In this document: positions 36,101-60,192 of the stretch, in pieces | Numbering within the stretch: position 1 is the first letter of the stretch | Layout: each line of letters starts with the position of its first letter | NCBI RefSeq assembly: GCF_949628265.1 | Contig: NC_088790.1 | Span: forward strand, 7,072,545-7,136,544 | From: Cloeon dipterum | Taxonomy: Eukaryota > Arthropoda > Insecta > Ephemeroptera > Baetidae | Length of the DNA: 64,000 nt | Direction: 5' to 3' | Translations under genes and position numbers: made by a program | The notes under the pieces: model-generated | Database searches by the model: none | The model's input: only the letters and a program-made list of their open reading frames with translations | Told to the model about the DNA's origin: nothing

Positions 36101-37541
36101 CGGGAGCAACGCACTCAGGTGCGACAAATGTTTCGGCAGACCTGTTTGCAGCGTACTCAATTGCAGATGGCAGAACGACCGTCAGTGTGTTCACCTAGTT
36201 TATCTCAATTTTAATTATCGCTCTTTTATTCTTTTCCGCAAACATACAGTTTCTGGTGTGAATGGAATAACGTATCGCACAAACATGTTGCCCACGGTGA
36301 CTGGTTGCTCATTGTTGATGTGAATTTGCCCGTAGGTGTCAACGCCCTCAAAGACAAGATTTACTTGCCGTTTTCCTACGAACTCGGCAGGAACTACAAA
36401 TATATAACACGTAGTACAGATTCATGAAACCAAATTTCCCCCAATGCGTGTTGAACTGATTTTGATTTATTGCAGACTTGGTAATGAATGTGGTGATCTG
36501 CGAACTACTTGAGTATTTAAAATCATTTATGCTGCGGTGAAATGGCCGATATAGACTTAATCGCATTTTTAAGAAAGTACTGCGAAATTTTTGCCAAAGG
36601 TAATATTGATCGAATTCAATTTTTTACATCATGGTGCTCTTGGTGAAGGCGACTTCACCCTTAACACGGGACTGTGGTTATAGAATCGTGTTTTGCCACA
36701 GCAATAGTGGGATCGACCAAAATTATACCGTTTTAAATACAATATGTGACAAAGTCTAGACTGGCCAATAAATCGCAGTATGAATGAAATGCCATTTTGC
36801 GCCTCGTTATTTGACAAGTTAATAAAAAATTATTTATTTTGAATTAATGCCTGCCACAGCATTAGCATGCCAAGTTTTTAATATTCAAATTTATTTAATT
36901 TTTAGGTGAATTTAATTAATTCATTTAAGTGAATCATTTATGCAAGAAGTTTTGACTGTCTAAGAATGTTGTGGTGCGGTCCTCTGTTATATAATGAATC
37001 TGTATTATGTAATCAGTAAATAATTTTTGATGGTTTTTGCCAACAAACACGATTGTGTAAATCAATATTAGTTGATTTACTAAAAAAATATCTGAAAAAT
37101 ATGAGAAAATTCGTAAAGTGTGTCATTTAATTTTAGTTCTATATAGATAAAATACTGATAAGTGTGTGATGTGTGATATATCTAATACCTTGAAACTGCC
37201 TGGTGAAAGTCCATGTGTCGTAACCCACCCAGCGATACATATGGTCGTTGAAACGATAGTAAAAATCTGTATCCAAAATTCCAGCATTTTTTAAATCAGA
37301 GTAAATCCCTCCAGGCACAGTTGCAGCAATGTTAATAGCTATAATATATGATTAATTTGAACGGTTTTTTATAGATTTCAACTAATTAAGATAAGCACAA
37401 AAATAGCTTACAGCCGTTGTTGTTAGCCACCGTCCAAATGTTTTCGCTTGCCGCCGCACCAAGATCCAATCGAAGGGCACATTGGGCTAAACCAGCGAAA
37501 GCCAAAACGAAACTTGTCACTATAAACAAGTTGACCCCCAT
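33182..37541 (-). CDS. beta-mannosidase (glycoside hydrolase family 2), one frameshift in exon 3
   Basis: Fifteen exons: 37412-37541, 37189-37338, 36248-36394, 36007-36194, 35824-35914, 35601-35771, 35369-35543, 35114-35310, 34865-35055, 34621-34811, 34277-34566, 34067-34217, 33802-34013, 33508-33735, 33182-33439. Apart from one extra base in exon 3, all phases join, giving about 922 residues (human MANBA is about 879). Residues 1-21 are a signal peptide, so the product is lysosomal or secreted. It would remove terminal beta-mannose from N-glycan breakdown products or dietary mannan oligosaccharides. Visible motifs are LCDELGILVWQDF, WAGNNENE (acid/base Glu about 471), RFASEFGFQS (nucleophile Glu about 567) and GSLYWQLNDIW, all typical of the GH2 beta-mannosidase barrel. 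A GATA-type site lies upstream. Exon 3 carries a four-base A run where three keep the frame (see 36360-36363). Confidence 0.93.
36360..36363 (-). other. single-base frameshift in beta-mannosidase exon 3
   Basis: On the coding strand the run is GTAAAATCTT. The upstream frame reads VPAEFVGKRQV and the downstream frame reads LVFEGVDTYGQ. Both match the N-terminal GH2 domain, but they are offset by one base, and the first frame meets TGA soon after. Flanking exon phases agree only if one A is removed. Either the base is an assembly or homopolymer error, or this allele is non-functional. Confidence 0.8.
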
Positions 37542-38910: not shown

Positions 38911-39388
38911 TTAACACATTTTTAATAAAAGTGCAGCAATTGCGAAGATAATGATGGCCACACTGTTTCGGACACCTAGAATGCAATTAAAAAATTAAAA
39001 CCAATTCCTGCATGCATGTTAAGAGCTATTTACCTGAATTGCATTTATTTTGATTTAAATCAGCAACATAAGCTGACGTGCAGGTACACTTATTTTCAAT
39101 GCAATCCACCCGATCTGTTTGGCCGTCACTCAGGATGCATTCTTTTTTGTCAGTGCACTGCTCATCCAGTTCTGCAAAGGAAATAGCAATTGGTTAATTT
39201 CCGTTCTTTAAATTAATATTTCAAATCTATAAAGAAAATTAATTTTGGGCTCTTTAAATAAGTTTATCACAATTTATATGGTACATTCGAACCATCCAGA
39301 TGAAGTGCTTGTTAAGGGATTTACTGTAAAAACACTTCTCTTAAAAAAAAAAAATAGCAGATACCAGATATCTCTCAGTCAATTTTAT

Positions 39389-39458
<70 letters not shown>

Positions 39459-41145
39459 GAATTTTCCTAACAGTTGAATGAGATGCTGCAGAAATTGCCG
39501 GTAAAAAAATCTCTTAAAACTAAGCTCTAGTCTTAAAACTTGAGCACTTACTGCGGTCAAACCAGCATTTTGGTGTGATGTAATGATTTTCAGGTTTGCA
39601 TTGACAAATTGACTTTCCATCGACTGGCACACACGACACCAGTCCATCAGTTTCCGCACTGCATTGACTGTTTTCCTCGCACTCTTCACCATAACCGGCA
39701 TCTGAGAAATAATTTCGTAGAATAACTCTTGATTCAATTATTATATAATAGCTTACAAGCAAGACAAGATGTTGCAGTTATATCACCAACAAAATTTATT
39801 TTGCAAGCACATTTGTTGTCCACGCACTCGGTGTTAGGAATTTTTGGATTACACTGGGAGTTTTCCTCGCAAGGGTTCCCCAGGGAGCCATCAACAACTG
39901 AAAACAGTTAAGGAGTCTATTTTAAAATCAAATTATTATGTATAAAAAATATGTTACCAGCAAGGCACTTCTCTCCAGTCAATGACGCAACGAAGGAATC
40001 TTTGCAAGCGCACTTTTTCTCGGCATTGCACTCAGAATCTGCCACCGTGTTGCAAACATTGGGATCTTCTGTGCAGTCCTCTCCGAGGCGTGAAGCACCT
40101 TATGAAAACGTTTGTAAGCGCTAGAGCGTAAGTTATATTTTTTTCCAACCTTGGATGCACTTGTTTCCAGCGCTGTTCTCTACTGAACCCTCAGAGCACG
40201 TGCATTTACCAGAATCGCCGCACACTGCTGTAGCTCCTAGGTCTCCTGAACTACACTGTGCTGACTCTTCACATGCTTCGTTGAAATCCGATAGAACTGC
40301 AATCATAGCAAATATTTTAACATTGCATATTCCATTTTACGTTATATTTAGCATTTTTATCAAAATTTCTTGGAATCTCGACTTATTCTCTGTTTTACAC
40401 ACTATATTTGCTTCAAAAGTTGTTTGTTAGACATATGAGTTTTCACTGAAACGCTGATTATTTCCTTAAAAAAATTCACTTTTTTGCACATCCCTAGAAA
40501 TTTTGCTACCTTATTTAATTTATAATTAGAAAATCGAATTTTTTAACATAAAAAATGTGCAAATGCACTCGGACAAGTTGAAACTAGTATTTTTCCACTA
40601 ATTATGAATATATGAGAGTGTTCAAAATATAGAGCTGAGCGAGATGATTTCCCATTACCTTTCAAACATTGTATCAAGTTAGATTTAACCACCCAGCCAG
40701 GATTGCATTGACATTTCGATTCAATGCAAGAAGATTCTGCAATTTGGCATTGACCGTTTTGCTCGCAAGCTTCATCTATTGCGGACGTAACTATTTAAAA
40801 AAAATTTATAAATTAAATAAAGTTTAATTGAAATTACATATACTCATATTTTTGCTATGTTACGAGTCAATGTGGTTATTTATTACCTTTAAGACATCTT
40901 CCTTTGTCATCACTTGAAACGTAGCCATCCACACAATCACATAAGGATTCACCTCCTACTTCCTTGCATTCAGCGTTTTCAGGGCACTCAGGAGCTGCTA
41001 CGTCGCACGTTTCTCCATTGTTAGCTGCTGTAATAGGAAAAATTCAATAGTTTGTTTCATAAAAAAAAATAATGCAATTTTTACCTCTGCTTAGAACAAC
41101 TAGACTAGCTAGGAAAACGAACAAAAAAATCCTTATTGAAGCCAT
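38911..41145 (-). CDS. EB-A: secreted/GPI-anchored protein with 7 six-cysteine EB-like modules
   Basis: Nine exons: 41085-41145, 40887-41027, 40659-40790, 40150-40296, 39958-40098, 39757-39897, 39552-39701, 39034-39171, 38911-38975; all introns are phase 1 and the total is 371 residues. Exon 1 is a signal peptide (MASIRIFLFVFLASLVVLSR). Exons 2-8 each encode one module of the form C-x(3-5)-C-x(5-9)-C-x(2-9)-C-x-C-x(9-16)-C, for example TCDVAAPECPENAEC followed by LCDC. This resembles Pfam EB modules and insect proteins labelled prion-like Q/N-rich domain-bearing protein 25. Exon 9 gives a short hydrophobic tail (SVAIIIFAIAALLLKMC) after a Cys-Asn-Ser-Gly, as in GPI-anchor signals. Function is unknown; a cell-surface, ligand-binding or adhesive role is only inference. 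It is the last gene of a five-gene tandem array. Confidence 0.88.
39392..39452. repeat. (TA)n microsatellite in EB-A intron
   Basis: About 30 uninterrupted TA dinucleotides between EB-A exons 7 and 8. The open frame reading Ile-Tyr repeats through it is an artefact. Confidence 0.95.
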
Positions 41146-41209
41146 TGCAGAACCTCGTTGACTCTCTGAAGGTGGAAGTATGAAGTGACCATCTGCACAG
41201 ATAATCTCT

Positions 41210-41216
41210 TTTTATA
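41210..41216 (-). promoter_or_regulatory. TATA box of EB-A
   Basis: TATAAAA on the minus strand, about 65 bases before the EB-A start codon. This leaves a short 5' leader. Confidence 0.6.
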
Positions 41217-42442
41217 TTGCATATATGCCGATAAGGCCGACACAATAGATTAACCTGCTTTGTGTGATTGATTTTTTCAAAGGCAAATGCTTGCCTCGAT
41301 ATCAGTGGCACACTTGAAAATAATCAAATGATATAGTGTGCTAGGTAATTATACAGCCAAGAGCTATTTTGCGTCACAAAATCCGTCACTTGCGATTGCT
41401 AGTATATTGAAATGATTTAGGAATTTATAGTTTATCTACGATATTTTGTAACTTCATCACTTTTGGATGAAGTCACTTTCTGCACTACCAATAAAGGGCG
41501 TGTAAATAATATAGTCTTGGTCTGAATAAATAAATTAAATTCATACTTTGAAACAAGATTAAAAAGAGTATATTTTGGTAAAAGCTTATTTTACGCCGAG
41601 GAACCTTAACTGTAATTATCGCCCGAGTGTGTTATAGTGGATTTTTTTTTATTTTCATGATCATTTTATAATCTCCTTGTGCAAAAAATACTGGCTAAAA
41701 TTTTTAAGAGGTTTTATCACATTGATTGAGCTCGCATTGATCAAACACTGAATTAATCATTAATTATACACCATCGACTCTTCTTGGAAATTATTCACGC
41801 ACCAAATATTCAATAATACTAATGTATAGAAGTGTTGATAATATCAGCATGATAATTTCAAAATGTAGAAAATATAAATGAGCTGCCAAAAACAACTAGT
41901 ATTGAATCACGCCAGTCTTATCGGTATAAACACTTGAAACTAAAATATTAGTAGAAGAAAGACACAAGGAATATCACCGCACGTATGCAGATAAGTCGAA
42001 TGATTCAAATTGTATACCAAGCCCCTATTGATCAATCGTTCAACCAATCGATAAGTGGACATCTCGCTCTGATTTTTTTTGCATTGGCCCCTTTTGAAAA
42101 CAAATGTATTAATTGAACCCAATGCAATGCCATCTTTAAAAGTGAAATACGTGTAAATATTATTACGGAATCCGTTTCTATTACAAAATTTTATCAGCAT
42201 AAGTGTGAAAATAACGTAAGAATTGTTCCTGGACTAAACTAATCTTCATTATATAGGCAACCATGCTTTAGCCACGGTCGGCCACGAGCCATTGTGCGCC
42301 CAATGTCAATTTCGTCACTAACGAATATCATAATATGATGTGACAGAATAGGTCGCATAAGGGATGAGCCCGGTCCTATTGAAAGGGACAGCCATTGCCT
42401 CGTCATTAGGATCTTTAATTAAAATGCTAGACATTTCTACCG
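41217..42442. other. intergenic between EB-A and the inverted-repeat element
   Basis: AT-rich, no coding or RNA signal recognised. Confidence 0.5.
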
Positions 42443-43288
42443 GAGCAGTTATTTGCGAGATTGGAGGTCGATTGGACGCGATTTTTCAGCGTTGAAATTT
42501 GTAGGTGGCAGTCATATTTGCTTAAAGTACTTGTTAATAGATGGTGAAATTCCAAATTTGAAACTCGGGAATGGGGGCGTTCCCTATTTTTTCGGTATCT
42601 CAAAAATACCCGAAAAACGAATTCTGTTAATGAATTGTAAACTGCAACTCTTGACTGCGTTGAGTTATCACCTTGAAACTTTCACTGCCCAACCTAGTTT
42701 TTGATCCTGAACAACTTTTGCATTTACAAAAAATACCAGGTCGAAGGTCAAGGTCACCTTTGGCGACCTTTTTTTGAAAATTCAAATTTAAGGGATGATA
42801 GCCCCCTACGATTTTTTCGGGTTCAGGGCTGAAATGTAGCCCGTGAAATTCTACACAAGCACACCAAGTTTCATAGGTGCAATCGCGATACTTTTGCTGC
42901 AATTCGAATTTGAAGTTTGAAAACCTGCTCGAGGCCGCTTTACCGCGCATGCACTTTGAGCGGCGAGTTCGCCTCTCGTTCTTCAAGTTGATTTTTTTTC
43001 GCATTTCATTTGCTTAGAAACACTAATGGGGCCTAGGGTAGACCAAGGAAGGTTGAAATCGCCCTTCAGGGTCTGTCCCTGACGTGACCCTGAGATGAAA
43101 AATTTCTAAAATTTCCAATTCCATCGAAATTGGTGTCTTTTTATAGGTTTTCGCCACTGTACAGCTCAAATTTACAGCCAAAACTGCCGAATGACAATCC
43201 TGAAACCGGTTCTTGAAATAATTGTGGTAGCCATTAATCCAGACGTGATGTGTTAAATGGTCAAAAATTTGAAATCTTTAATTTATGA
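42443..43288 (+). repeat. left arm of the inverted repeat
   Basis: Begins near GCAGTTATTTGCGAGATT and ends near AATTTATGA. It pairs base for base with the right arm, with single-base differences such as TCGGTATC versus TCGATATC. Confidence 0.85.
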
Positions 43289-43552
43289 TACGACTCTTCT
43301 GTTTTGTACACACAAAGTTCATATTGAGTGTTAAAATTAACGATCGTTTTTATACTAACAAAAGTTAAAAAATGTATATCGAGCAATAACAAATCAATTT
43401 TTCTTAAAAAAGTAGAGAAACAACATTTTTTAGTTTTTAAAATTAGCGTATTTGCCAGTGCATTTCATAACATTTTTTCATAGTATTACGCATAAGATCC
43501 TTTATTATCAACTCATATCATGAACTTCATGTGTGCAAAATTAAAGTATCTT

Positions 43553-44399
43553 TTCATAAATTTATGATTTCAAATTTTTGACCATTTAACACATCACGTC
43601 TGGATTAATGGCTACCACAATTATTTCAAGAACCGGTTTCAGGATTGTCATTCGGCAGTTTTGGCTGTAAATTTGAGCTGTACAGTGGCGAAAACCTATA
43701 AAAAGACACCAATTTCGATGGAATTGGAAATTTTCGAAATTTTTCATCTCAGGGTCACGTCAGGGACAGACCCTGAAGGGCGATTTCAACCTTCCTTGGT
43801 CTACCCTAGGCCCCATTAGTGTTTCTAAGCAAATGAAATGCGAAAAAAATCAACTTGAAGAACGAGAGGCGAACTCTCCGCTCAAAGTGCATGCGCGGTA
43901 AAGCGGCCTCGAGCAGGTTTTCAAACTTCAAATTCGAATTGCAGCAAAAGTATCGCGATTGCACCTATGAAACTTGGTGTGCTTGTGCAGAATTTCACGG
44001 GCTACATTTCAGCCCTAAACCCGAAAAAATCGTAGGGGGCTATCATCCCTTAAATTTGAATTATCAAAAAAAGGTCGCCAAAGGTGACCTTGACCTTCGA
44101 CCTGGGATTTTTTGTAAATGCAAAAGTTGTTCAGGATCAAAAACTAGGTTGGGCAGTGAAAGTTTCAAGGTGATAACTCAACGCAGTCAAGAGTTGCAGT
44201 TTACAATTCATTAACAGAATTCGTTTTTCGGGTATTTTTGAGATATCGAAAAAATAGGGAACGCCCCCATTCCCGAGTTTCAAATTTGGAATTTCACCAT
44301 CTATTAACAAGTACTTTAAGCAAATATGACTGCCACCTACAAATTTCAACGCTGAAAAATCGCGTCCAATCGACCTCCAATCTCGCAAATAACTGCTCA
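43553..44399 (-). repeat. right arm of the inverted repeat
   Basis: Reverse complement of the left arm. Beyond 44399 the flanking sequence no longer matches the left flank. Confidence 0.85.
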
Positions 44400-44871
44400 C
44401 CGTGAAATTTATTCGCTCAAAACTAGAAAGGTACAAACTGGCGAGCTGCAAGACGGAAATATTTCGCATATTTTATAAATCCGAATGGACTTAAAAGTAA
44501 GTCGAACGCTCGCAAACAGCCAGCACTCACCCTTAATCATCACTCACAATCAGATTGCCGCAATTTGCTTAGATGAAGCCTTTATTATAATACATATTTG
44601 TTATTATGATTACAATCAGGAAATTATTCCCTGTTCATTTGCTCTTTTCCTCAAAAATGTATATTTTATAATAAATTTTTTTCCAACATTGCTTCAAGAT
44701 ATTTCAGTTTATTTCAAGGTATTCCTAAAACTCCCTAAAATATCGTAGCTAAGTTGGTTAATTAATGTGCAAAATGTTTTTCGGATTATCTTCTTTTTAA
44801 TAAACAATATAATAAGTTTTAATTAGCTCTTGCCAAGGTTTTGATATGTTTGTTGGTATGGTTGATTCAAA
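44400..44871. other. intergenic, 3' of EB-B
   Basis: AT-rich sequence between the inverted repeat and the EB-B stop codon. It holds the EB-B 3' UTR and an ATTAAA-like polyadenylation signal in minus orientation near 44818. No gene is seen. Confidence 0.4.
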
Positions 44872-47800
44872 TCACCGAGAAATATAAACTGTTATTAATA
44901 CTGAAAGAAGCGATGCCATTGCAATAGAGATTTGGGCGCCTGAAATAATAAAAAATGAAGCATTATTATTAGCAGAAAATAAGTGAATCTGTCTGCATTA
45001 CCTGTATTGCAAATGTTATTAGTTTTGTCTGGTATGTAGCTTGCCTTGCACTGACATTTATCGTCCAAACAATGAACTCTCTCATTATTTTCGGCTAATT
45101 GGCACTGTATTGTCTTATTGCATTGCTCATCAAGCGCTGGAACAAAATTGGAGGTTTTATTTTTCATCATGCTAAATAAAATAGTGTAAATAGTATTTTG
45201 ACTAGTCATAATTACTTACATTTTCGCTGCCAGCACGTATTTTCGGCGAAAATATTGCCCGCGTCGCATGCACACTTTCCTTCGCTAGAGCACGTGACTT
45301 CTCCTTCAGTGAGTGTGCATTGAGCCAGTTCCAGGCATGGTTCATCGAAGTCAACCACTGAAAGAAGCGTCAAGCAAATTGCTTCAGGTGTCATTGTCAC
45401 TTACGTGGCAAGCATGTTTTGTTATTTTCACTCCGAACAAATTCCGTCTCGCAATCGCAAATCAATTGCCCTGCCACACACACAGAATTTGCAGGCGTGC
45501 ACTGAGCGCTGATCCTACAACCTTCGCCCAATGTATCAACTTCTGTAAATATCAAGAGCATGAATAACTGTTGCTCCCTGGACAAAAATTGAAAAAATTA
45601 CTTTCCAAACAGAAATTTCCGCCTTGTACGAAATTGTCCATACAAGTACACAGTTCATCTAAGCACTGAGCATTTGACGTTGTGCATTGACCTGACTGCT
45701 CGCAAGGTGTATTTAAACCACTTACTTCTGTAAAATTACCCACAATGTGCTAATTAGCTTTAACTGTTGAAAACAAAAAATTGTTTGAAACTAAAAATAA
45801 TTTGATCGCTTGATGCGAAATAGATTTGACAAATTTTTATATTTTTTTACCACTAACTTAATTTTTATACTAACTCTTTAAGCAAGTGGAAAGATCTAAA
45901 CTTGGCACATGTGTTGACACGCATCTGCATTCGCCTACCATTATGTTGCAAGTTGCCGAAACAATATTATTGCATTGCGCCCTCTCTTGACATGCATCAT
46001 TTAACTTTTCAGCCTCTGGAACCAGTTTAAAATTTAGCTTCGAGCAGCCTACAAGTATTTGACCACCTTACTCTTCAGGCAACTCTTTTTGTCAATACTT
46101 CCAACAAATCCGTCATTGCATTGACAAATGTTATTCACACAATTGCTGTTTTCATATGGGCAATTACCATCGACAGGACATGCACCACCTATACCTGTGA
46201 AAAATAAATTGAAATAGTTATGTTACCATCAGTATTTTAAGCCGAAAAGCGTGAATTTGAATTACCTTCTAAACATTCGCCATTAATTTCAACGTACCCC
46301 GGTGCGCATTTGCAGACTTTGCCAGAAGTTCCAGATGCGCACTCAGAGTTCTCCCAATTGATGATACAGTCTATTGATTCCAGACAAGGTGCACCCAAAA
46401 CATCTGAAACTCATTTTATTTTCCTGCGCTATGCGAATATAAATTGTGTACTTGGATTGCAGTAAGTGTTGGCTAGGTTTGGGGATGTATTCTGTTTGCA
46501 TATACACCTTTCTAATCCAAATGGCCCAAAGCAAAATCCATTGATTCTTTCGCACTGCGCGCTAGTACTGCAGAAAAATCCAATTTTATCTGCCACTATA
46601 TGCAAGAATCAATTAATTTGGATGGTGTTTAAAAAAGAACAAAGGCAGTTTACCTTGAAGACAAGATGTTCCTTGTGGATTTGACACAAATTCTTCCTTA
46701 CAACTGCATTTCTTGGCGTCGCCAAGATTCTTGCATTCAGCATTTGATGGACATTGATTTGACACTTCGCAAATATCATTTTCTAGTGTGTTTATTTCTG
46801 TAATAAAGAACATAATGCTATGTGCGTGAATGTGAATAGCTGGCGGAGAAAATTCAAAATTAATCATAGATATTTTTACCAGGGTAGCATTTTTGTAATG
46901 AATTTAAATCTGGGACGAAATCCGCATCACAATCACAATATTTTACATCTCCGTGGGCAACACAGGCAGAATTTTCGACCACACATTGAGGTGACTCTTC
47001 ACACAGCCCCCCAACAGCGTTTGTTTCTGCACATACAAAGGGAAATATTTGACTCCAAATTTTAAAGAAAAGGTTTTTCCTACTTGTTAAACAGGTAGAA
47101 AGATCTTCGGAAGCTATATGTGAAGAAATGCATCTGCATTCGCCGACAACTCTGTTACAGTAAGATGATATTATGCCAGCGCACTGTATATCCTCACTAC
47201 AACGGTCATTTAATGCTTTTGCCTCTGTAGAAATAAAATAATCAATAAATTTAGATTTTAAAAAAGAGAAAAAAGAGAACAAGCGTATATATAATACAAA
47301 ATTATTGGAAAGCAGTAAGGAACAAATAAATAAATATTTGGTGAGCCCTTTAAAAAATCAATGTAATTAATTTACCACCAAGACATGCAGTTTCTTGAAA
47401 ATTTTTCACAAATCCTTCCGTACAGCTACACTGCTTGGTATCACTCTTGCATTCAGCGTTTCGAGGGCATTGCTTTGTAATTTCACAATCATCTTTGTCA
47501 ATTGTTCCAACCTCTGAAATTGATTATATCGTAAAAATTATAGAACTTTATTTTGCAATATAATTTTACTTGGATAGCACTGTTTAAAGGAATCATCAGG
47601 CACGTAATCATCTTTGCAGAAGCAGTACTTTTGCTCACCATCCGCTGTGCAAGCACTATTCTCGAAATCACATTGAACTGTCTCATCACAATATCCTCCA
47701 ATACTGTCTCTGACTATTTAGAAGGAATTAAAATAATATTAATGGTTGGTCTCTGTAAATTTTCAAAATAATTTGACTAATTTTTCCCGTGATATCAGGA

Positions 47801-49019
47801 GGGTGTGCAAAATCATTTTTAGGACGATTGCAAACATTCAAGGCCAGCTACTGTGCAGTAAGCACTAGTAAATAAGTTAATTCTTAAAACGCGAGGAATG
47901 AAAAGAGGTGAAAGTTACTACCCTGATACATTTATTGCTCGTCAGAGGACACATAAATACTAAAATAAATAAAACGGTATATTATGTATTTTATTAATTT
48001 TTGACCAGTAGAAGCCATGATCTCGCGTACATGTTTATATTTTGATCTTCGTCTCAAAGCCGGGGTTTCACCTTTAACCAAAAATATCTCAAAATGCAAA
48101 TATTTGAGGGTAGCAAAATATCATATGTTTTGCAACTATTTTTAAGAAAAATATATCGTGTTCTTTTTTGAAATTTGATTTTAAACTAAAATTTAAAAAC
48201 GCTGACCTTGACCATTGACCTAGAAAAATATTTTCTTTGCTAAACCTTTCCGGCAAAAAAAGTTTATGGTGTTTGGTTGAGCTTGATATCGTAAATTTAT
48301 TCATAGATTTTGAGATATATGTAGTTGATTTTATTTTTTAAACTCTAAATCCAGGAAAATACTCAAAATATTTGTTCCAAACATTTACTCAGTATTTTAT
48401 TGGTCAACACCACCATCGTACCTAAAAGTCAAGAGACGATGAAAAATTTGGCAAATTAATTGAAAAAATGGCTGAGATCACCCTGATAATATTTATTTTT
48501 TTTTATGAAAATTGAAACTTGTATTTAAATATTTGTAATTAAATCAATATTAAAGAATTTGTTGTAGTTAGAAAACCGAGTGGATTTTTATCCTTCAATT
48601 TTAGCCTCCTCTGTCCCTGACATATAAAGTTCAGAACCTTTTTAAACCTTCATGCATGGCGTCCCAAAGAGACTAAACGACCAGTTAAAACAGAAACATC
48701 TCAAAGCCAATACTTGATTTTTTGAAAATTAAGAAATATACTTGCTCTTAAGGCATTTGCTTTTGTCTTGATTTTCTACGTAGCCTCTGTGGCATGCGCA
48801 TTGCTCTATTTCACCTACTGACAAGCATTCTGCATTTTCCGCAAGGCAAGTGTCGATTTCACTGTTGCAATTCACTCCAAGATTTAGCACTGCCCCAACT
48901 TAAAAATGGATAGTATAGTTTAGATTTTAAAGAAATTCTGATGCAAAGTTACCTGAATATGAAACTTGGATCCCTAAAATGAAGAGGGCAAGGGGTAGAA
49001 ATCGTCGTACATTGAGCAT
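44872..49019 (-). CDS. EB-B: secreted/GPI-anchored protein with 14 six-cysteine EB-like modules
   Basis: Sixteen exons: 48953-49019, 48746-48898, 47570-47713, 47376-47513, 47084-47224, 46880-47026, 46654-46797, 46452-46589, 46266-46403, 46072-46194, 45875-46015, 45602-45727, 45405-45542, 45220-45357, 45002-45136, 44872-44939. All introns are phase 1, for 692 residues. Exon 1 is a signal peptide (MLNVRRFLPLALFILGIQVS), exons 2-15 are one module each, and exon 16 is a hydrophobic tail after Cys-Asn-Thr-Gly, fitting a GPI-anchor signal. Modules keep C-x5-QC, C-x-C and a terminal Cys, for example CEQSGQC, CQCNDGF. Exons 5 and 11 are clearly related (both contain GECRC and end DLSTCL). Intron 2 is about 1 kb and uses a GC donor; all others use GT. 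Function unknown, as for the other array members. Confidence 0.87.
47714..48745 (-). other. large intron 2 of EB-B, with GC donor
   Basis: The donor reads AAGA/GCAAGT at 48744-48745. Using the nearest GT instead would shift the frame, whereas the GC donor gives the phase-1 join found in every other intron. GC-AG introns typically have just this GCAAGT consensus. The intron is about 1,030 bp and otherwise AT-rich, with no exon seen inside. Confidence 0.65.
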
Positions 49020-49067
49020 CTTTGAGTATTCCTTTGAAAGAGGCTTCAAAAGCAGGAGAGGTGATCA

Positions 49068-49073
49068 TTTATA
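49068..49073 (-). promoter_or_regulatory. TATA box of EB-B
   Basis: TATAAA on the minus strand, about 50 bases before the EB-B start codon. Confidence 0.6.
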
Positions 49074-49329
49074 TAGTACATCAAGTTGTCGCGTTCGTTC
49101 AAGGACTATGATATTAATTGAAACATGAAGATTTGGAAGTCTTTTATTGATGAATTTACAGCAGCATGCACCAATTAATCGATTAGTTATCTGCTGAATC
49201 GAGCTTACAAAGGGAGAAAGGATTAAAGGCATCTCGCTTATTTCTTATCTGCAGGTTTAAGTTACACTCAGTTTCAAGGACAGTTATTACAATCCATAAT
49301 TTTACACAGCTAATTAATTAATGTCCTAA

Positions 49330-49530
49330 TTTTTTTTTTATTGCTCTTTTTATCCCTGTCCGAGGACCGGAGGACCGGGAAGGGCGCGCACTGCACTAGC
49401 ACGAATGCTGAAACCCGGGTCCCAATAACACCGCGAACGGATAACATGGGCGCACCAGGCCGCACAGGGACCCAGCCTACTCAAGGGCCACTTGCCTCCG
49501 CACCGAGGACTGCATTGAAACGCTAGACAT
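49330..49530 (-). mobile_element. GC-rich, A-tailed insertion (SINE- or LINE-tail-like)
   Basis: About 170 bp of markedly GC-rich DNA stands out from AT-rich surroundings. Read on the minus strand it ends in an A-rich tail (nine T residues on the plus strand at about 49331-49339). Abrupt composition change plus an A tail suggests a retroposed short element. No RNA polymerase III boxes, protein or target-site duplication were identified with confidence, so the class is open. Confidence 0.45.
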
Positions 49531-50263
49531 TTGTCCCGTGAAGCCAAATCGAATTTAATCAAATTTGATTAAATTGATTTTTTTATTTTATATATTACTA
49601 ATACACTTACCCTAAAAGCTACCGTTTCATAGAAATGTATTTGTTCTTCATCATTAAATAAAATACGTAAATTATTTAACATGACGTATGCACTTCTCAC
49701 AAAATTGAGAAAATTTTGAACGCAATGAGTAAAGGGTGGTGATGCTTTATTTCGTCTGGGTCACCGTAGATGCACGCGTAACAAAAGAGCAGAAGGTTGG
49801 AGACGAGTCAGTCTTGAGAGACACCCCAGATGAAGAAGTCGAATTTTTTGACAACTATGCTGTGTCAATGATGACAGCAGCTCCGCAAGCATGCCCGACT
49901 TCTTAGACCGGAATTGCGCAGGACAGTGATTGAAATAAAAAGCATGAAGATTAATTGATAGCCAAAGGCTGTGTAGGATATAAAATCGATAATTTTTATT
50001 GAACCCTGAAATAATCTATTGATTAGACTGTACACATGAGCTAATTTAAAAATTTAATGCTTTCTTCTTTAGGCGGACTCAAGGTATCTATCAATTTTAG
50101 GCGTTAGAAAAAATATTTCATGTAAAACAATGCAATAATTAATAAAACACACAAGTCAAATTCGTACAATAGAAATTATTATTTACTGTTCAAGTTTTCA
50201 AAGTGATATTATTTTATCATATATAATTAAAAAATCAAGAATTCCCACACATGACGCGAAGAA
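49531..50263. other. intergenic between EB-B and EB-C
   Basis: AT-rich, no coding signal. Contains the EB-C 3' UTR at its right edge. Confidence 0.5.
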
Positions 50264-53200
50264 TTACATGAGGAGAGACAGTAGAAAATTCCAAAGGATG
50301 GCAGCAGCTGCCAAAGCGATTTCCGGTCCTGAAAAATACCATTTAGGTCAGGCTCCGAGAAAAAAAGCCAGAAATTTCACTAACCAGAACTGCAAACATT
50401 TTTCTTGGTTTGAGCCAAGAATCCCGATTTGCACTGGCACTTGTTTTCTCTGCACTCGACCCTTTCACTCTTTTCGGTTAGTTTGCACTGGACGTCTACA
50501 CTGCATTGTTCACCAAGAACTGAAATAATTTTTAGTTTAAATAAATAGTTGGTTAAACTTTACTATTAAATCTCTGCTTACCTTGATTTTTTAAACAGGA
50601 ATTTGCATCTGGATTTTTTATAAAGTCAGGTGGACATTGACAAGTGTTTTGCAGACATTTAGCATTTTCAACTGTGCATTGTGAGTTTTCCAAGCACTGC
50701 ATGCCAAGGGTGTCTCGAGCTAAAAAATTTATTCATGAAGCATATGTTTTTAAATAAAAATTTAAAACTACCTATCAAACAAATCAATTTGTTTTCTGAG
50801 CTGACATACTCGTTTATGCATTGACACTTTTTGTCTTGTCCGGAACAAGTAGATTTTTCTGGACATTGCTCATCTATTTCACAAATTTCGCCATCAAGGT
50901 TAAGTACTAGATTTTTGAAAAAATATTTTATTATATTTATGAGATCAACAGAGAAAAAAATATTTTACCCTTGTAGCATTTTTTGTCTTTTTCCAAAAAA
51001 TCTGTGTCACACGAACATTTTTTGTTCAGACATGTAGACCATTGGACTAAACACTGGATAGCCTTTTCGCATGGATCACCTAATTCGCTTCTTTCTGCGA
51101 ACCAAATGATAATTACGAATTTTTATAAGGACAACGATTTTAAAACAATCAATACCTGGGAAACACTGGTTTTCTTCGGGAACAAATTCTGTTTTGCAGA
51201 TGCACTTGTTTTCGGAACATTGAGAGTTCAGAATCTTGCACTGCGCTTTTTCCAAGCATTCTGCTTCAAGAGTGTTTTGAGCTGAAATTAATTTCCGATT
51301 GATTGAAAAGATATATCAAGAATCAAAGTTCTCCAAGTACCTGCCAAACAAATTTTGTTATTTACCGAGCTTACGGAATCATCGTTACATTGACAGCGCT
51401 CGGTTGTCAAAAGACAAGTAGAATTCGTTGGACATTGCTCGTTAACTTCGCAAATATCAACATTGAGATCGACCACTGCAAATGACATAATTAATATAAA
51501 ACGTACAATAATTAAACCAAGTTGTCCATGCTTTACATTTGTAACAATTGTTTTCCTTTCTTATGAAACCTTCTTGGCAGTCACAAATTTTGTTCTTGCA
51601 AGTAGATTGAGTTACATTGCACTGATCCGCTATCTGGCAAATGTCTCCCAAAGTGTATATTTCTACAGCAAGACGCATATTATTTTTATTAATTCGTTCT
51701 ACCCACTAGCAACGTCTGCATTTTCTACCTTTGTAGCAACAACCATCTTTTTCAATATATCCTGTGGATGGACAAGCGCATGTGCTGTTTTCACAGAGTG
51801 CATTAATGCCGCTGCACTGGGTATTATCGGAACACTCCTCGCCAGTAGCGTTAACAACTGAAATCTTCATTTTTAGCATATTTTACGGGCTAAGGTAGCT
51901 ACAATACATACCAGTAAGGCATGATAGACGTTGACTATCAGCAACAAAGTCTTCTTCGCACTGGCAATTTTTTGTTTCTTCGTCGCAGGTAGAATTTGTT
52001 GGACATTGATCGTCAATAACGCACTTGCTGCCATTTATGTCATTGATTTCTGTTCCAAGCAGAGTATTTATATAGCAAGGTTGTTATTAAATTTTATGTG
52101 ATTGTTACTTTTGTAGCAGAAATTCTCGTTTTCAACAAATCCTGTTGATGGACAAGCGCACATGCTGTTTTCACAGAGTGCATTCATATTGCTACACTGA
52201 GAACTCTCTATACACGTCTCGCCGATAGCAGAAAGAACTGAAAATCAATCTTATTAGAATATTTGTTCGTTCAAAGGCAGGTAATTTACCGGCCAGGCAT
52301 GATAGATTTTCTCTATCCGCGATAAAGTCATCTTGGCAACTGCATTTCTTTGCATCACTGTCGCAATTAGAATTAGTTGGGCACTGCTGGTCAATCACGC
52401 ACTGAGTGCCATTTATATCATTGATCTCTGTTTCAAAAAGATAAAATTTACTTAATTGAAATGCTTGCGTAAATTTCATGAATTTTGTACTCTCTAAACA
52501 TTTTAGCTCGTGGGGTATCCAGTCATCAATACAGTTACATTTTCCATCTGTACAATTGCTTCCCATAAATTGGCACTGTTCTTCAATTTCGCAGGTGGCA
52601 CCCAGCTCATATTTTTCTTTAAAAAAAGAGATCAAACAGATTATTACGTGATTATAGATTAGGTAAAATATATAAGATAAGCGGGTAAAGAACAAAAAAT
52701 AATTTGAGAAATAAACTCGAGTGAAAACCATAATTAAGATTACAGTAAATGTGTCATTACAGTTAATAATTAAACCTCGCAAGCTTATCTAAATGTAAAC
52801 GTGCTATAAAAATATTTTTGTTAAAAGCAAAGAGCTCAAGGGTGTGGCTTGAAGTACGTCGGTGAACTTAAAAGAACTCCTCGCGAATGATTCACTGGAA
52901 ATAAAACTCACTTTCATAGCATTGTGTATTCTCCGCGTCCGCAACATGCGTTTCCAAGCAGTCGCAAAATCCTGTCTCGTTACACTTGCTATCAATAAAT
53001 GGGATCTTCGCACACTGCGCATCAATTTCACATGAATCACCCAATTTACTTGCCACTAACAAATCATAGTAATATTATTAGACGATGTTTCATTTGAATG
53101 CGTTTTTCAAACCTTTGAGACATGATACATTTTGCTTGTCAGGGATGTAGGCATCCGTCTTGCACTGGCATACAAAATTTCCTTCCCCATTCATGATGCA

Positions 53201-53808
53201 CTCGGAGTTTGTAACGTTTTTGTTGCACTGCCTGGTATCACGGCATACTACACCAAGGTCCAATGGTTCGACTTAAAGAGAAAACAAATTAACTGCTGGT
53301 GATTTCGTGCAAACTTTCATTTTGGTCATCCTTACTTTCCTCGCAAGCAGTTCTAATTTCATTGGCTAAATACTCAGATGTGCACTGACACCGCTTTCTG
53401 TTATTTATTCCAGTAGGTAGACAATCTCCTTTTGTTGGGCATTGTTTTTTTATAGAACATGGGTCATCAATCAAACGCTCTGAAATTTTTAAAAATTAAT
53501 GACACATCTTAAAATGCCTTGAATCTTTTTCAAAAGTTTAATTACTGGGAAAGCAATTATCCAAATTTCCATCTTCCTGGACAAAATTTTCAGCACACTG
53601 GCAGAACCCGTTTATGCACACAGAATTTGGAACGTCTTCAGAGCAGTCAGTTTCAGTTTTACAAACTTCTTCCAAGAAGCTTGCTAAATTTGAGTAATAA
53701 ATCAGTGAATAACTTGAAATGAAATTCTAAATTTAAATTCGTACCTTTCGTGAATGATGAATGGGAGACGGCAAGCGCCAAAATCGCCACTGCTAGTTTA
53801 AAAGCCAT
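50264..53808 (-). CDS. EB-C: secreted/GPI-anchored protein with 16 six-cysteine EB-like modules
   Basis: Eighteen exons: 53745-53808, 53546-53683, 53336-53479, 53113-53271, 52912-53055, 52491-52616, 52290-52427, 52109-52237, 51912-52049, 51729-51857, 51537-51662, 51341-51475, 51156-51281, 50969-51094, 50772-50906, 50582-50719, 50385-50519, 50264-50328. All introns are phase 1, for 764 residues. Exon 1 is a signal peptide (MAFKLAVAILALAVSHSS), exons 2-17 one module each, and exon 18 a hydrophobic tail (LAAAAILWNFLLSLLM) after Cys-Ser-Ser-Gly. Exons 7-8 and 9-10 are a duplicated two-exon unit: INDINGTQCVIDQQCPTNS matches INDINGSKCVIDDQCPTNS, and ALCENSMCACPSTGF matches ALCENSTCACPSTGY. Exons 12 and 15 are also close. 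The largest member of the array; function unknown. Confidence 0.87.
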
Positions 53809-53850
53809 ATTTTCGACCGTATCACACACAGCTCTCCTCACAAGTAATCC

Positions 53851-53858
53851 CTTAAATA
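53851..53858 (-). promoter_or_regulatory. possible TATA-like box of EB-C
   Basis: TATTTAAG on the minus strand, about 45 bases before the EB-C start codon. It is a weaker match than in the other array members. Confidence 0.35.
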
Positions 53859-54515
53859 AGAACTAAGCGAAACCTAGAAAGGCTAATCGCTTATATTGCA
53901 GCGTATTCTCGCAACTATATAATAAAATAAATTAGTCAGATGTGAAATAAAGTTATCGTAATCTACGTAAGATATCATTTAATGTGACGAATTTCAGATA
54001 ATATTTTATTGCTAGCTTTAGTGCCAACGTTCTCTTTTAGACACATTTCTGATCTTTTGGGTGTGTTACTTATTATTTAGCAAATGCAAGCTTTTTCAAA
54101 TTTTTTGTTAGCTACATTATCGCGGCGAATTGCTCTTTATCGAGGACTGACAGGCCAAATTAAAACTGAGTTTTATTGCTCAGAACTTTATTGATCAATA
54201 CGTAATTTTTACAGCATGCGAATTATGCTTATCTTGCATACTATCGCAGAAAAAAAATCGCTGATTGTTTTACTTATTCCACAAAATTAGTTCAATTTTA
54301 TTAAAAAGTTTCCTGCTGGCTTTCATTTATGTTTTTTTTTATCTATACAGTGGTAATATTTTATAAAATATGAAAATGGTATTTATTAGCTTTTATTAAT
54401 GAAATATAAATGAATTACTTATTTAGTATTACAAAATGTATTCGTTTTAATTACATTTGCATTGTTTACAATTATTATGAGAGACTATATAAAAGCTAAC
54501 AAAATTACACATGTT
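53859..54515. other. intergenic between EB-C and EB-D
   Basis: AT-rich, no coding signal. Confidence 0.5.
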
Positions 54516-56648
54516 TCAAAAAATTATCTTGACCAGAAGCAAATAAATAGTCACTAGAAAAGAGGCAGCAGCTTTTCTCACGCCTGAAATACGAAACGTA
54601 TAAAAACTTCTAACTGCTTTTTATTTAATGAGACCAATACCTGAAATGCAAGCGTTTTTTCCTGGATCTTGCCTAAAGGGTTCTGAGCAGGTGCATACCT
54701 CCCTAACACAGTTTGTCCGTTCATTTTGACCCCCATCGAGAAAGCATTGCACTTTGTCCGAACAAGGTTCACCCACGTCTAGAAAATCGATTTCAAATTT
54801 GCAAAAATTTATGAATCGTGTTTTTTACGTTTCTTTTCCAAGCACGTGTTATTATGTGGCACATGAGTAACCGTATCGCATGAACATTTTTCGTTTAAAC
54901 ATTTTTGGCTTCGTATGCATTGTACGGATTCAGTGCATTCTTCTCCTAAAGCCACAACTGAAAAATTTATTTTGAAATTTTTAAGATTCATGCCCATGTA
55001 CCATTATTTGTAACCTACCCTTTAAACACTCAGATTTATTTGTGTTCAGAACAAAACCATTATTGCATTCACACGTCTGAGAAGCATTGATCGTTTTGCA
55101 TAATGAATTTTTGAGATTCAGCGTGCACTGGTTACTTTCGACACACTCATCTCCCACTTTCTTAGCACCTGGAAGAAAGAAAATCAATATTTTGTGAAAT
55201 CTTTTTTATCGTTACTTGCTACCTTCGAGGCAAGCTGAACTCTGGGCATTCCTCACAAAGCCGGCCACACAATTACAAGTTTTATCTCCGTTGCCTTCTG
55301 AGCAGGTAGAATTGTTTGGACATTGTATGTTATTTTTGCATTTTTCATTTCCAATCGACTTAACATCTTAAATAATCATGCCATTTTTTATTTGCTGAAG
55401 TACACGACATGTTTCTTACTTTTTAGGCACTCGTCTGATATCCCGAATGGTGCTTCTTCCTTACATGTGCAAATTCCAGCTTTGCAAATTGAATTTTCAA
55501 TTTTGCATTCATTGGGGTCTTCGCAACGCCCGCCCAACGTCCGAATCTCTTTAGATGATTAAAAATATATATTTTTAAAAATACTTGCCTGTGCGTTTTT
55601 TAATTTATTCTTTTCTTGTGCTTAAACATTTCGTACCTTTTAAGCAAGCGGACCCCCGGGAGTTCTTTACAAAACCAGGTATACACTTGCACGTCATATT
55701 TCCTTGGTTTCCAACGCAGGTAGAGCTGCCTGGACACTGCATGTCATCTTTGCAATTTTCATTGTCTATTGACGTAATACCTAAAATTGTTATTTCCTTG
55801 ATATTATATGTCTATAAAATTAAAAAAAGAAGGAAATTACTCTTAAGACACTCATTTTTAGTTTCAATTGGTGCGTCTTCATTGCATGAGCATTTTCCAA
55901 CTTTGCAAATTGAATTGTCAATTTTGCATTGATCGTTTTCCTGGCACACCTGACCCAACTTCGTACTCACTTTTGATTAAAAATAGATCAAAATAAGTGT
56001 GATTATCAGTTAAGTTTTGTATTAAGATATTTGTCTAAATTTAATAATCCTCAAAATGTAAACCTTGGAGGCACGCTGAGCCCTGGGTGTTCTTAACAAA
56101 ATCTTTTTTGCAGTTACATGTCTTCTTTCCCTGGATTTCTGAGCAGGAAGAGCTTTCTGGACACTGCAAGCTATCTATGCAAAGTTCCTGCCCTATGGAC
56201 TTTACACCTATAATTATATTTTAATTATATATATTTTGTAAGCCGTATATTCATATAATTAATACTTACTTAACAGACAAATTTTCGATTGTGAGTCCAT
56301 AACATAGCCATCGTTACATTCGCAAACACCATCAGCACACGAAGAATTTCCAGTCACGCAACTTTCGCTTTTGTCGCATTTTTCCTTCAATGCCGCTTTG
56401 CACGTAAAAATGAAATAAATTAAACAATTTGTTAAAAAGTTATAATTTTTGTTTATGCTTGTAACGAGTAATTGTAATCACTCGTTGAATTTTTTGTATG
56501 ACTGTTATGTTTCGCCATTAACGTGTTGATTTCGTCAAATGCCAATTACATAATCAATACAACGTTATATATGCTTACCTTCATGGGATTCCCATACTTG
56601 CTGCATTGTTAGGAAGAAAACTAGAACCACGACCCTGCAAGAAAACAT
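54516..56648 (-). CDS. EB-D: secreted/GPI-anchored protein with 9 six-cysteine EB-like modules
   Basis: Eleven exons: 56579-56648, 56270-56395, 56064-56207, 55841-55969, 55637-55780, 55420-55548, 55223-55366, 55019-55168, 54829-54957, 54641-54778, 54516-54583. All introns are phase 1, for 456 residues. Exon 1 is a signal peptide (MFSCRVVVLVFFLTMQQV). Exons 2-10 are one module each. Exon 11 is a hydrophobic tail (SFLVTIYLLLVKIIF) following Ser-Gly, a likely GPI-anchor signal. Two module types alternate: exons 3, 5 and 7 (144 nt, with SIG/SID...C...QCP) and exons 4 and 6 (129 nt, with ENDQCKIDNSIC matching DPNECKIENSIC), so the middle grew by copying a two-exon pair. Modules have the usual six cysteines, for example ECVESNQC and CECNNGF. 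Function unknown. Confidence 0.87.
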
Positions 56649-56719
56649 TTTTTAAAGAGTTTCCAGAAAGAGAGGATTTACAGAATGACAATGAGTCTCA
56701 TTTTGAGGCGAGCGTTAAA

Positions 56720-56725
56720 TTTATA
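56720..56725 (-). promoter_or_regulatory. TATA box of EB-D
   Basis: TATAAA (extended TATAAATTT) on the minus strand, about 72 bases before the EB-D start codon. Confidence 0.6.
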
Positions 56726-57948
56726 CCATTATTTAATTGTATAGAGGACATGGCATATTTGTGTTTAGTCTTCAAACAGAAATTTTTTAGGAAAACAGCT
56801 TTCCATTGCTTGGTTTGGTGATAAAACGCTCTAGTTGATGTTGTTACTCATGCGCATTATAAAGATAAAAAGCAGAGAATTTTGTGTAAATTTTTTAAAT
56901 GTCCACAAACAAATTATAGTGATTAGACAGGGTTCAAACAGGACGGTCATGATTGCGCATTATCTTTTTATGTAACTTGTATGAAAACAGTAAAGAACCG
57001 TGTGCTTTACTGTTTCCATTTTGCTCAACAATTTTTACTTCTATAGTTCAGTTAAAAATTGAGTCGTTTAAAAAAAACGAATTATTAGCAATGAACGAAC
57101 ATGTTAGGATTAAGTGTAAAAAGAAAATAACAGTAATGCCCAGTATGCAAGCCCAGTTTATTTATTTTGTGCAATATATACTACAGATCTGATTTTATTA
57201 TTTATTTCTAGCTCTGATTGAGGGCCACGATGTGTATATTTTTAAAGCATGTTGAATAAACTGGCAAAGGGACTCGCCGGCCTTAAACTTTTTTTACTTA
57301 TAGCATCATTAAATTTTCACGTTGAGCGTTTTGTATAATTTTCGAATTTGCATAAAGAATCAACTAAAGCCACGTGTAATAATGAAATGAATTTTCAGTA
57401 TAAAATCGTATTTTGCGTTCCTCACATGTAAAAACGAGAACAAAAATTGCCAAGGTGGATTCTTAAATTTGAGAATAGGATTCAAATTTTTATTTTTCCC
57501 TTAAGCATGAAATATAGTTTTTTGATCATAGTCAATTTTTGACAATTAGCATTGCCTAAAAATACATTAAATAAGACTTCTGTGCAGTAGCGGGAGGTAA
57601 AAAGATGGCCAAGCTCCTTTGCGGCCACTCAGTCTCCATGTTATCCTGTTTTGGGAATCTGCGGTGAACTCATAGCCCTCAGGATGTGCTGAGTAGAATT
57701 GAAAGACATTTAAAATAATTATTTTTATAAATAAGCAATTTTCCTTTTACGATTTGCCTTTATTTACTGACTGAGATGGAGTACACAAACACATCAATCC
57801 TTTTATGATTAATATAAAGATAATACACTTCTCCGCACAAAATATTGCCATACAGATGAGAATTATAATATTTTGAAACGAAGTAATTTTATGATTGAAA
57901 TAATTTATTAATTTATAAATTGTTCAAAACCAGGGGGTGATATTTTAT
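56726..57948. other. intergenic between EB-D and EB-E
   Basis: AT-rich, with only short chance open frames. The EB-E polyadenylation signal AATAAA overlaps its stop codon region at about 57944-57950 (minus). Confidence 0.5.
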
Positions 57949-60192
57949 TTACAGATTACGTGAAACAATGATGGAGAGAAGAATCGAAAAAATAGCAATG
58001 GCATGTTGACCGGAACCTGTATTGAGCAATAATGACGCAAATTGAGTTACTTTTCATCTGGTGCTATTTTCAACTTGCCTGAATTGCACTTGTTGTCCGC
58101 GATGTTCGCCCGGAATGGTGTTTGACACTGACAGGTGGTATCAAGACAAAGAACTCCGTCTTGTTTGTCGCCTGAAAGTACACACTGACGGCTCAGCATG
58201 CAAGTTTCATTTAAAGCTGTAAAAATGGAAATTTTAATCGGGATTACAACTTATTGCTCTTTGTCTCAGTTATTAAATACCTCGTTTTGGCCAACACGAT
58301 AAGTCAATGCCAATATATTTGTCGTCACAAGCGCATTTTGTGGTATTTACAGCTCCGCCGCACTTGCTGTTTTCAGTACACTGTGATGTTTCTTCGCACG
58401 GCTCGTTGAATCCAACTCCTAAGTAACAGCTTTTAGTGAACATATGTGCATTAAGTGTGATTTGTACAGAATACTTTTAAGACATCTCCGACTCCCTGAA
58501 TGGCTTACAAAATCACGCAGGCAAACGCACACATTTCTCTCAGCGTGGCAAACTGAGTTGTCTGGGCACTGCAGGGAAAGATCGCAGCTGTCACTAACGA
58601 ATTTTCCTGCAAGAAATTTTTAATGCAAAAAGCTCCTAACTTTGTAAAAATATTGACTTTGTTTGCAGTCATTTCCATGACTTATGAAACCAGCCTTGCA
58701 AACACAAGTTGCTTCCCTGCATTCTGCATTTGGCACTGTGCATTGCTCGTTGAAAATACAGTCGTCATTTAGTGAACCTTTTGCTGGCAAACAAAAAGCT
58801 TTTTGGCATTTTATATCATTAAAACTATTTGAAATTACCTGGTACACAAGAGGTATTACCATTCGGCACAAAACCAATGTTGCACGTGCATATTTTAGAG
58901 GTGCTGTGGCAAATTGAATTTCTGACAGTGCACTGGTCCGATATTACACAAAATTCTCTAAGTTCGTTCCTTACTTTGAAAGGATTTGTTACAGTTATAG
59001 TTTATAGCATTCTTAAGCAACTATTTTGAAATACCTGGTACACAAGAGGTTTTGCCATTCCTCACAAATCCTGCTGTGCAATCGCATATTTTAGGGTCGC
59101 CACTACAAATTGAGTTTGGAACGCTGCACTGATTGGTAATTTCACAAGATTTTTCAATCTCGTCAATAACTGAAGTGATATTGTTCTTGAGTTACATCTT
59201 TAAAATTAAAAAAAATATACATTTACCTGGCACACAAGAGGTTTTGCCATTCCTCACAAATCCAGCTGTGCAATCGCACATTTTAGGGTCACCGTTACAA
59301 ATTGAATTTGGAACGCGGCACTGATTGGTAATTTCACAAGATTTTTCAATCTCGTCAATAACTGAAGTGATATTGTTCTTGAGTTACATCTTTAAAATTA
59401 AAAAAAATATACATTTACCTGGCACACAAGAGGTTTTACCATTCCTCACAAATCCAGCTGTGCAATCGCATATTTTAGGGTCGCCACTACAAATTGAATT
59501 TGGAACGCTGCACTGATTGGTAATTTCACAAGATTTTTCAATCTCGTTTATAACTGAAATGATATTGTTCTTGAGTTACATCTTTAAAATTAAAAAAATT
59601 TATGCATTTACCTGGCACACAAAAGGTTTTACCATTCCTCACAAATCCAAGTGTGCAATCGCATATTTTAGGGTCGCCACTACAAATTGAATTTGGGACG
59701 CTGCACTGATTGGTAATTTCACAAGATATTTCAAGCTCGTTTATAACTGAAATGATATTGTTAATGAGTTACGTCTTTAAAATCAAAAAAATGTATGCAT
59801 TTACCTGGCACACAAGAGGTTTTGCTAATTTGCACAAAGTTTAATCTGCATCTACACCTATTTAGGTCATCGCCATCTTTGTTACAAGTTGAGCCATTGA
59901 CAGTGCACTCCTTTTCGCTACTGCAAATTTCCTCCAGGTCAACTGTAAAGAGTTTTACGTGAACAATTAATTATATTCAAATCCATGCAAGGTTTAAATA
60001 TTAAATTTATGTTTCCCACATTCTAATTTTGGTGGGTGAGAATTTGGTTTTAATAAAATACCATGAAGCACTTAGTTAATTTCAGTTTGCATGTATACCT
60101 CAAACGTAAAAATTAAAGATAATACCTCCAACAGCAAGGTGAAAAACAAAGGTAACACAAAGAACCACTAGAAAACAGTGTTCCTTGGCCAT
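57949..60192 (-). CDS. EB-E: secreted/GPI-anchored protein with 10 six-cysteine EB-like modules
   Basis: Twelve exons: 60126-60192, 59805-59942, 59612-59746, 59419-59553, 59227-59361, 59035-59169, 58839-58973, 58658-58783, 58475-58606, 58281-58418, 58079-58216, 57949-58016. All introns are phase 1, for 493 residues. Exon 1 is a signal peptide (core CFLVVLCVTFVFHLAVG), exons 2-11 one module each, and exon 12 a hydrophobic tail (AIAIFSILLSIIVSRNL) after Asn-Ser-Gly, a likely GPI-anchor signal. Exons 3-6 are nearly identical copies (SCEITNQCSVPNSIC), and exon 7 is a more diverged relative. The last intron has a GC donor (TTCAG/GCAAGT), and the join is in frame only with it. First gene of the array as transcribed; head-to-head with the odorant-binding-like gene. 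Confidence 0.88.
58077..58078 (-). other. GC splice donor of EB-E last intron
   Basis: The exon ends TTCAG and is followed by GCAAGT. With the acceptor at 58017-58018 the phase-1 join is kept and the GPI-like tail exon follows. No GT nearby gives the same frame and module length. Confidence 0.65.
59035..59746 (-). repeat. four tandem copies of a ~192-bp exon-plus-intron unit in EB-E
   Basis: Exons 3-6 of EB-E are each 135 nt, with exon ends spaced 192-193 bp apart. The short introns repeat as well as the exons (each contains TGATATTGTT and an A-rich stretch), so whole exon-intron units were duplicated recently. Differences are a few bases per unit. Confidence 0.9.

Follow-up and report, generated by a model that had tools for sequence, protein, structure and literature searches.

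A tandem array of five EB-family genes in Cloeon dipterum with a conserved last module and a changing front

What is encoded by a run of genes that consist almost wholly of one repeated six-cysteine module, and how do such genes come to differ in length? These questions are raised by a 64,000-nucleotide (nt) stretch of the Cloeon dipterum genome (Ephemeroptera, Baetidae; NCBI RefSeq assembly GCF_949628265.1, contig NC_088790.1, positions 7,072,545 to 7,136,544 of the forward strand), hereafter the window, whose minus strand carries five such genes in tandem between positions 60192 and 38911. The original prediction described them as an array of glycosylphosphatidylinositol (GPI)-anchored EB-repeat proteins with one module per exon, and the observation of a five-gene EB array is confirmed here. 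The gene anatomy, membership of the EB family, a fixed last module, exon duplication and constraint in the tested module pairs can be read from the sequence itself. The explanation that we prefer, and to which we give even chances, is that the products are surface rods of epidermal growth factor (EGF)-like modules, probably GPI-anchored, with a length set by exon duplication.

Five genes with one module per exon

When the whole window was scanned with a six-cysteine pattern, all 56 matches fell on the minus strand, with 0 on the plus strand, in a list that counts one module twice and lacks another; a scan with wider spacing, on the minus strand of 38500-60500 only, returned 56 distinct modules, 55 of them with exactly six cysteines. 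These modules fall into five tandem gene models with 7, 14, 16, 9 and 10 modules, and module and exon correspond one to one in all five:

38911..41145, minus strand: gene 1; signal exon 41145-41085, 7 module exons, tail exon 38975-38911; 371 amino acids (aa); EB E=2.1e-27
44872..49019, minus strand: gene 2; signal exon 49019-48953, 14 module exons, tail exon 44939-44872; 694 aa; EB E=5.6e-50
50264..53808, minus strand: gene 3; signal exon 53808-53745, 16 module exons, tail exon 50328-50264; 764 aa; EB E=7.5e-79
54516..56648, minus strand: gene 4; signal exon 56648-56579, 9 module exons, tail exon 54583-54516; 456 aa; EB E=1.5e-42
57949..60192, minus strand: gene 5; signal exon 60192-60126, 10 module exons, tail exon 58016-57949; 493 aa; EB E=1.6e-43

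The models begin at start codons at 41145, 49019, 53808, 56648 and 60192 (genes 1-5), finish with stops that end at 38911, 44872, 50264, 54516 and 57949, and contain no internal stops. Their 61 introns have a median length of 60 nt and are all in phase 1; two are GC-AG introns, both with the donor GCAAGT (after 48746 in gene 2 and after 58079 in gene 5), and the others are GT-AG. Phase 1 had been required when the models were built, and the splice search was therefore redone blind to phase. The best-scoring donor was then in phase 1 in 52 of the 56 modules and the best-scoring acceptor in 49 of the 56, against 201/535 and 218/577, respectively, in a control of 600 random Cys-like codons. Scan and exon models thus bear out the five same-strand genes and their module numbers as originally predicted, and models and phase-blind search do the same for the plan of one module per exon with phase-1 introns. 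In gene 1, modules 6 and 7 are separated by a 380 nt intron that holds a long (AT)n microsatellite (39385-39470).

A TATA-like box lies 56-113 nt upstream of the ATG in all five genes (random rate, 12%), and a polyadenylation hexamer, counted without a control in DNA that is AT-rich, is found at most 205 nt from each stop. Together with the models, these signals fit five transcription units. A single large gene was also considered and is unlikely, because a signal-like exon, a TATA-like box and a tail exon recur in every block.

The module and its family

All five proteins score far above the gathering cut-off of Pfam EB (PF01683; 24.3 bits), with 95.4, 167.7, 260.1, 143.8 and 147 bits for genes 1-5, and the resemblance to EB modules, first proposed from family knowledge, is supported by this check. 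In Pfam, no domain other than EB exceeds its cut-off in the five proteins, and no Kunitz family appears among their matches up to E 0.01; a passage of PMC5763927 has EB and Kunitz domains often occurring together in nematodes, which is a tendency and not a requirement. The best-matching EB stretch holds 8, 7, 8, 6 and 6 cysteines in genes 1-5, because the Pfam model starts within the final part of one module and continues into the next. According to its Pfam description, the EB unit has eight cysteines. The duplicated unit of the array, as the modelled exons delimit it, is a six-cysteine EGF-like module; the Pfam EB model spans the exon border, and its stretch can borrow two cysteines from the preceding module. 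The prediction of six-cysteine EB modules consequently holds as to family and is refined as to unit, since the exon unit is EGF-like and differs from the eight-cysteine EB unit.

The cysteines of the module follow the order C, C, C, CxC, C, which is the EGF order. When a profile of the 56 modules was compared with solved structures, the EGF repeats of NELL1 and NELL2 were found as the best sequence-profile match, with E 2.4e-8 over all repeats and weak values for single repeats (best 0.0032); they share this cysteine order with the array modules and differ from them in loop lengths. Elsewhere in the assembly, an array of EGF repeats (L017:903-8788), which we take to be dumpy-like, is weakly matched by the EB model, and the EB and EGF profiles therefore overlap.

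Across the 190 Mb assembly, EB matches number at least 77 at E up to 1, with at least 34 of them in the window, and at least 30 at E up to 0.001, with at least 16 in the window. Those outside the window occupy 13 places among the matches listed, the nearest on the same contig being ~9 Mb away. Seven of the 13 places were modelled and yielded eight loci, L009-L016, and a further one is the EGF-repeat array L017. Half of these (L009, L010, L013 and L016) have the array plan, their last module being of the array's type and followed by a hydrophobic tail candidate; L012 shows such a candidate, and no last module was found in it, and among the modelled loci L011, L014 and L015 have no convincing tail. 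In the phase-blind search, 41/45 donors and 36/45 acceptors of the dispersed loci are in phase 1, a result biased towards that phase because the 45 modules had been chosen for having phase-1 sites. Judged from the matches, no other part of this dispersed family is as large as the array. Further searches of the assembly found no match to (TTAGG)6, in a type of DNA search that carries a warning on simple repeats, and two DNMT1-RFD matches; PF11671 was uninformative, with no match in the assembly or in the controls.

A fixed last module behind a changing front

The following module exons are those in which the two ends of the proteins behave differently:

39034..39171, minus strand: last (predicted membrane-proximal) module exon of gene 1, recognised by spacing and between-gene similarity
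45002-45136, 50385-50519, 54641-54778 and 58079-58216, minus strand: last module exons of genes 2-5, counterparts of that of gene 1
59035..59746, minus strand: gene 5 modules 2-5, recent exon duplicates in units of 192-193 nt, 87-96% identical to the reference copy
55223..56207, minus strand: gene 4 two-exon block duplications, modules 2/4/6 and 3/5, from DNA repeat families and the module tree
51729..52427, minus strand: gene 3 two-exon block duplication, modules 6-7 and 8-9, from DNA repeat families and the module tree

The last modules have in common the spacing C-x5-C-x10/11-C-x4-C-x-C-x12-C. Within the five genes their mean between-gene score is 81.9, against 50.4 for modules in general, and within nine genes (the five of the array and four dispersed ones) it is 68.9 against 45.4; in neither case did any of 5000 random picks score as high. 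When a last module is matched to the modules of another gene, that gene's last module comes out best in 52 of 72 comparisons (9.1 expected), and the second loop, of 10-13 residues in all nine last modules, reaches 10 residues or more in three other modules (one of gene 1, two of L009). First and second modules show no between-gene likeness of this kind in the random-pick test. For the penultimate module, 7 of 5000 random picks were as alike in the nine genes, and 2050 of 5000 in the five genes of the window.

Among the non-last modules, the nearest relative stands within the same gene in 30 of 51 cases (10.5 expected), and 21 of these 30 relatives are two or three exons away. A fifth unit in gene 5 is 60% like the reference copy of its recent duplicates. 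A module tree (45 columns, 85 rows) has long branches, and 47 of its 81 inner branches are left open. Some recent duplications find support in it, the deep order being beyond its reach, and the random-pick test was preferred to it. Both included L009, L010, L013 and L016, and omitted L011, L012, L014 and L015, which lack a convincing tail or an identified last module. Two of the 12 minus-strand matches of L009 were dropped, namely the first, for which no acceptor was found, and the last, which is arginine-rich and likely false.

The likeness of the last modules and the turnover within genes argue therefore for a fixed membrane-proximal end, ahead of which the distal rod grows and shrinks. The length of the rod would shift when symmetrical phase-1 exons duplicate or vanish, singly or in small blocks. 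Because each of the 56 module exons is symmetrical in the models, with phase 1 on either side, and they stand ahead of a constant last module and an anchor exon, the locus could also be imagined as one of variable and constant regions, where alternative splicing skips or combines modules over a common membrane stub. We regard this as a long shot; if true, it would give ectodomains differing in length and composition.

Selection on duplicated modules

Twelve duplicate module pairs were compared, some of them sharing a module; their counts are small, only gene 5 contributes recent pairs, and gene conversion may have acted. Nonsynonymous divergence (dN) is lower than synonymous divergence (dS) in 11 of the 12, the exception being the pair formed by modules 2 and 3 of gene 5 (dN 0.05, dS 0.04). 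The duplicate pairs thus look constrained, and the comparison of dN with dS gave no sign of diversification among the 12 pairs tested. Pseudogenes or chance open reading frames are unlikely sources of the array, given this count, the lack of internal stops and the uniform splice phase.

The same pairs bear on recognition. The Nimrod cluster (NimA/B/C, Eater) is an insect gene cluster for multi-repeat EGF-like surface proteins, and CCxGY is the motif of the Nimrod family. The array resembles it as a set of clustered insect genes for multi-repeat EGF-like proteins; the array tail looks GPI-type, and CCxGY has 0 occurrences in the five array proteins. Diversifying recognition receptors comparable to this cluster, with modules under positive selection from pathogens, would suit the tandem arrangement, the variable module number, the many EGF-like repeats and the phase-1 exons, which allow in-frame shuffling. 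However, the low dN of all pairs but one speaks against them, as do modules 3 and 5 of gene 5, identical in their trimmed peptides, and we hold such receptors to be very improbable. A recognition role, which the original prediction had entertained, finds no support in dN/dS as far as it would act through diversification.

Signal exon, tail exon and anchoring

The first exon encodes a hydrophobic stretch in all five genes (best 11-residue hydropathy 2.5-3.2), and the tail exons, of 65-68 nt, encode a Gly and 20-21 mostly hydrophobic residues before the stop (21-22 residues from Gly to stop); the signal-peptide-like exon and the Gly-led hydrophobic tail that had been predicted are therefore present in 5/5 genes. 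In a search of the 45-75 nt past each module, a tail-like exon was found past the last module of every gene, at 56-62 nt, and past 0/51 other modules; past control donors of the window it was found in 6/408 cases, one of the six being gene 2's own. The last cysteine is followed by N-S-G, N-T-G, S-S-G, I-S-G and N-S-G, with the intron splitting the Gly codon, and C-[NSI]-[ST]-G is found at the tail junction in 5/5 genes.

A small residue followed by a hydrophobic C-terminal tail is the general layout of a GPI signal. The array tails have this layout, which makes the predicted GPI anchoring plausible: their length, start and hydrophobic core all fit. Two observations weigh against it, namely a basic residue within the last four of the tail in four of the five (KMC, R, KIIF, RNL) and, in gene 3, a tail hydropathy of 2.09, compared with 2.20 for the best internal stretch of the same protein. 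These observations therefore leave room for a minimal transmembrane anchor, by which the same surface rods would be held through a short single-pass segment that leaves only a few residues in the cytoplasm, the basic residues possibly serving as a stop-transfer signal. The hydrophobic runs are however roughly 13-18 residues long, which is short for a membrane span, next to nothing would be left as a cytoplasmic domain, and all five junctions carry a small residue; such an anchor appears unlikely.

An alternative of similarly low probability is that the proteins are secreted, as in venom, saliva or the gut lumen, the hydrophobic tail being removed or lost. TATA-like boxes suit tissue-restricted genes, and their presence in all five promoters would agree with this. 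Two EB module proteins are among the female-specific venom-gland-expressed genes of Cotesia vestalis (PMC8228208), and EB proteins occur in midgut tables of silkworm and locust (PMC12379596, PMC10484617), in passages that are silent on the presence of a hydrophobic tail. Against secretion stand the retention of the tail exon in 5/5 array genes and the tail candidates after the last module of the four dispersed genes.

From the predicted ends of the proteins we infer secretion, membrane anchoring and the GPI nature of the anchor. For GPI-anchored surface rods, the following course can be proposed. The signal peptide would take a rod of EGF-like six-cysteine modules into the secretory pathway, and the C-terminal Gly and hydrophobic tail would hold the protein at the membrane, where the tail would most likely give way to a GPI anchor attached at the small-residue motif past the last cysteine. 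The fixed membrane-proximal module would stand before the anchor, and the outer modules would form a stalk and a multivalent binding surface. Adhesion or ligand capture is probable as a role, on the surface of a barrier or blood-cell type, the tissue and ligand being guesses.

Relation to known EB proteins

EB-module proteins are present in insects and nematodes, and in the array the genomic unit is clear: a six-cysteine module in one exon, copied singly or in blocks ahead of a conserved anchor module. It thereby defines the boundary of the repeat, parts the presumed stalk from the membrane-proximal portion, and offers a clean example of how long surface proteins, as these are predicted to be, are built by exon duplication. 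The protein family is known and already named, and the array is a further member of it, with a constant end and a variable front. Neither such an array nor such a build was recognised as described in the open-licence literature searched.

The name deserves comment. The prion-like Q/N-rich criterion is about 30 or more Q/N per 80 residues. The five array proteins have at most 18 in any 80 residues, and the label 'prion-like Q/N-rich', to which the original prediction had linked them, is misleading. Bee genes with this label may share the array plan. The annotation name is borne by a bumblebee gene and a honey bee gene in passages of PMC10283033 and PMC7371693; with such EB-annotated bee proteins the array shares the match to PF01683 in 5/5 proteins, which, unlike the label, are not Q/N-rich. 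The inherited name is also that of the C. elegans pqn/abu genes, whereas the array proteins are without a Q/N-rich stretch. In a pathogen experiment, as given in a passage of PMC3364981, C. elegans pqn-25 had a value of +1.45 in one comparison and was unchanged in the other of the two. A passage of PMC4169385 places an EB family of the wasp Microplitis demolitor on scaffolds with nudivirus-like genes, and the EB domain is given as 'function unknown' in one paper.

Surroundings of the array

Between genes 1 and 2, at 42443-44398, lie nested inverted repeats whose two pairs of arms measure 556 nt (99%) and 348 nt (94%), and which by this arrangement are a palindromic, foldback-like element. Directly downstream of the array, on the minus strand, 33182-36421 holds glycosyl hydrolase family 2 frames of beta-mannosidase-like appearance; three frames of this region were scanned, of which two match nothing and the third (36218-36421) matches PF22666. 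Farther downstream, the plus strand carries HlyIII/PAQR-family exons at 30498-31034, with a second frame below the PF03006 cut-off and one above it.
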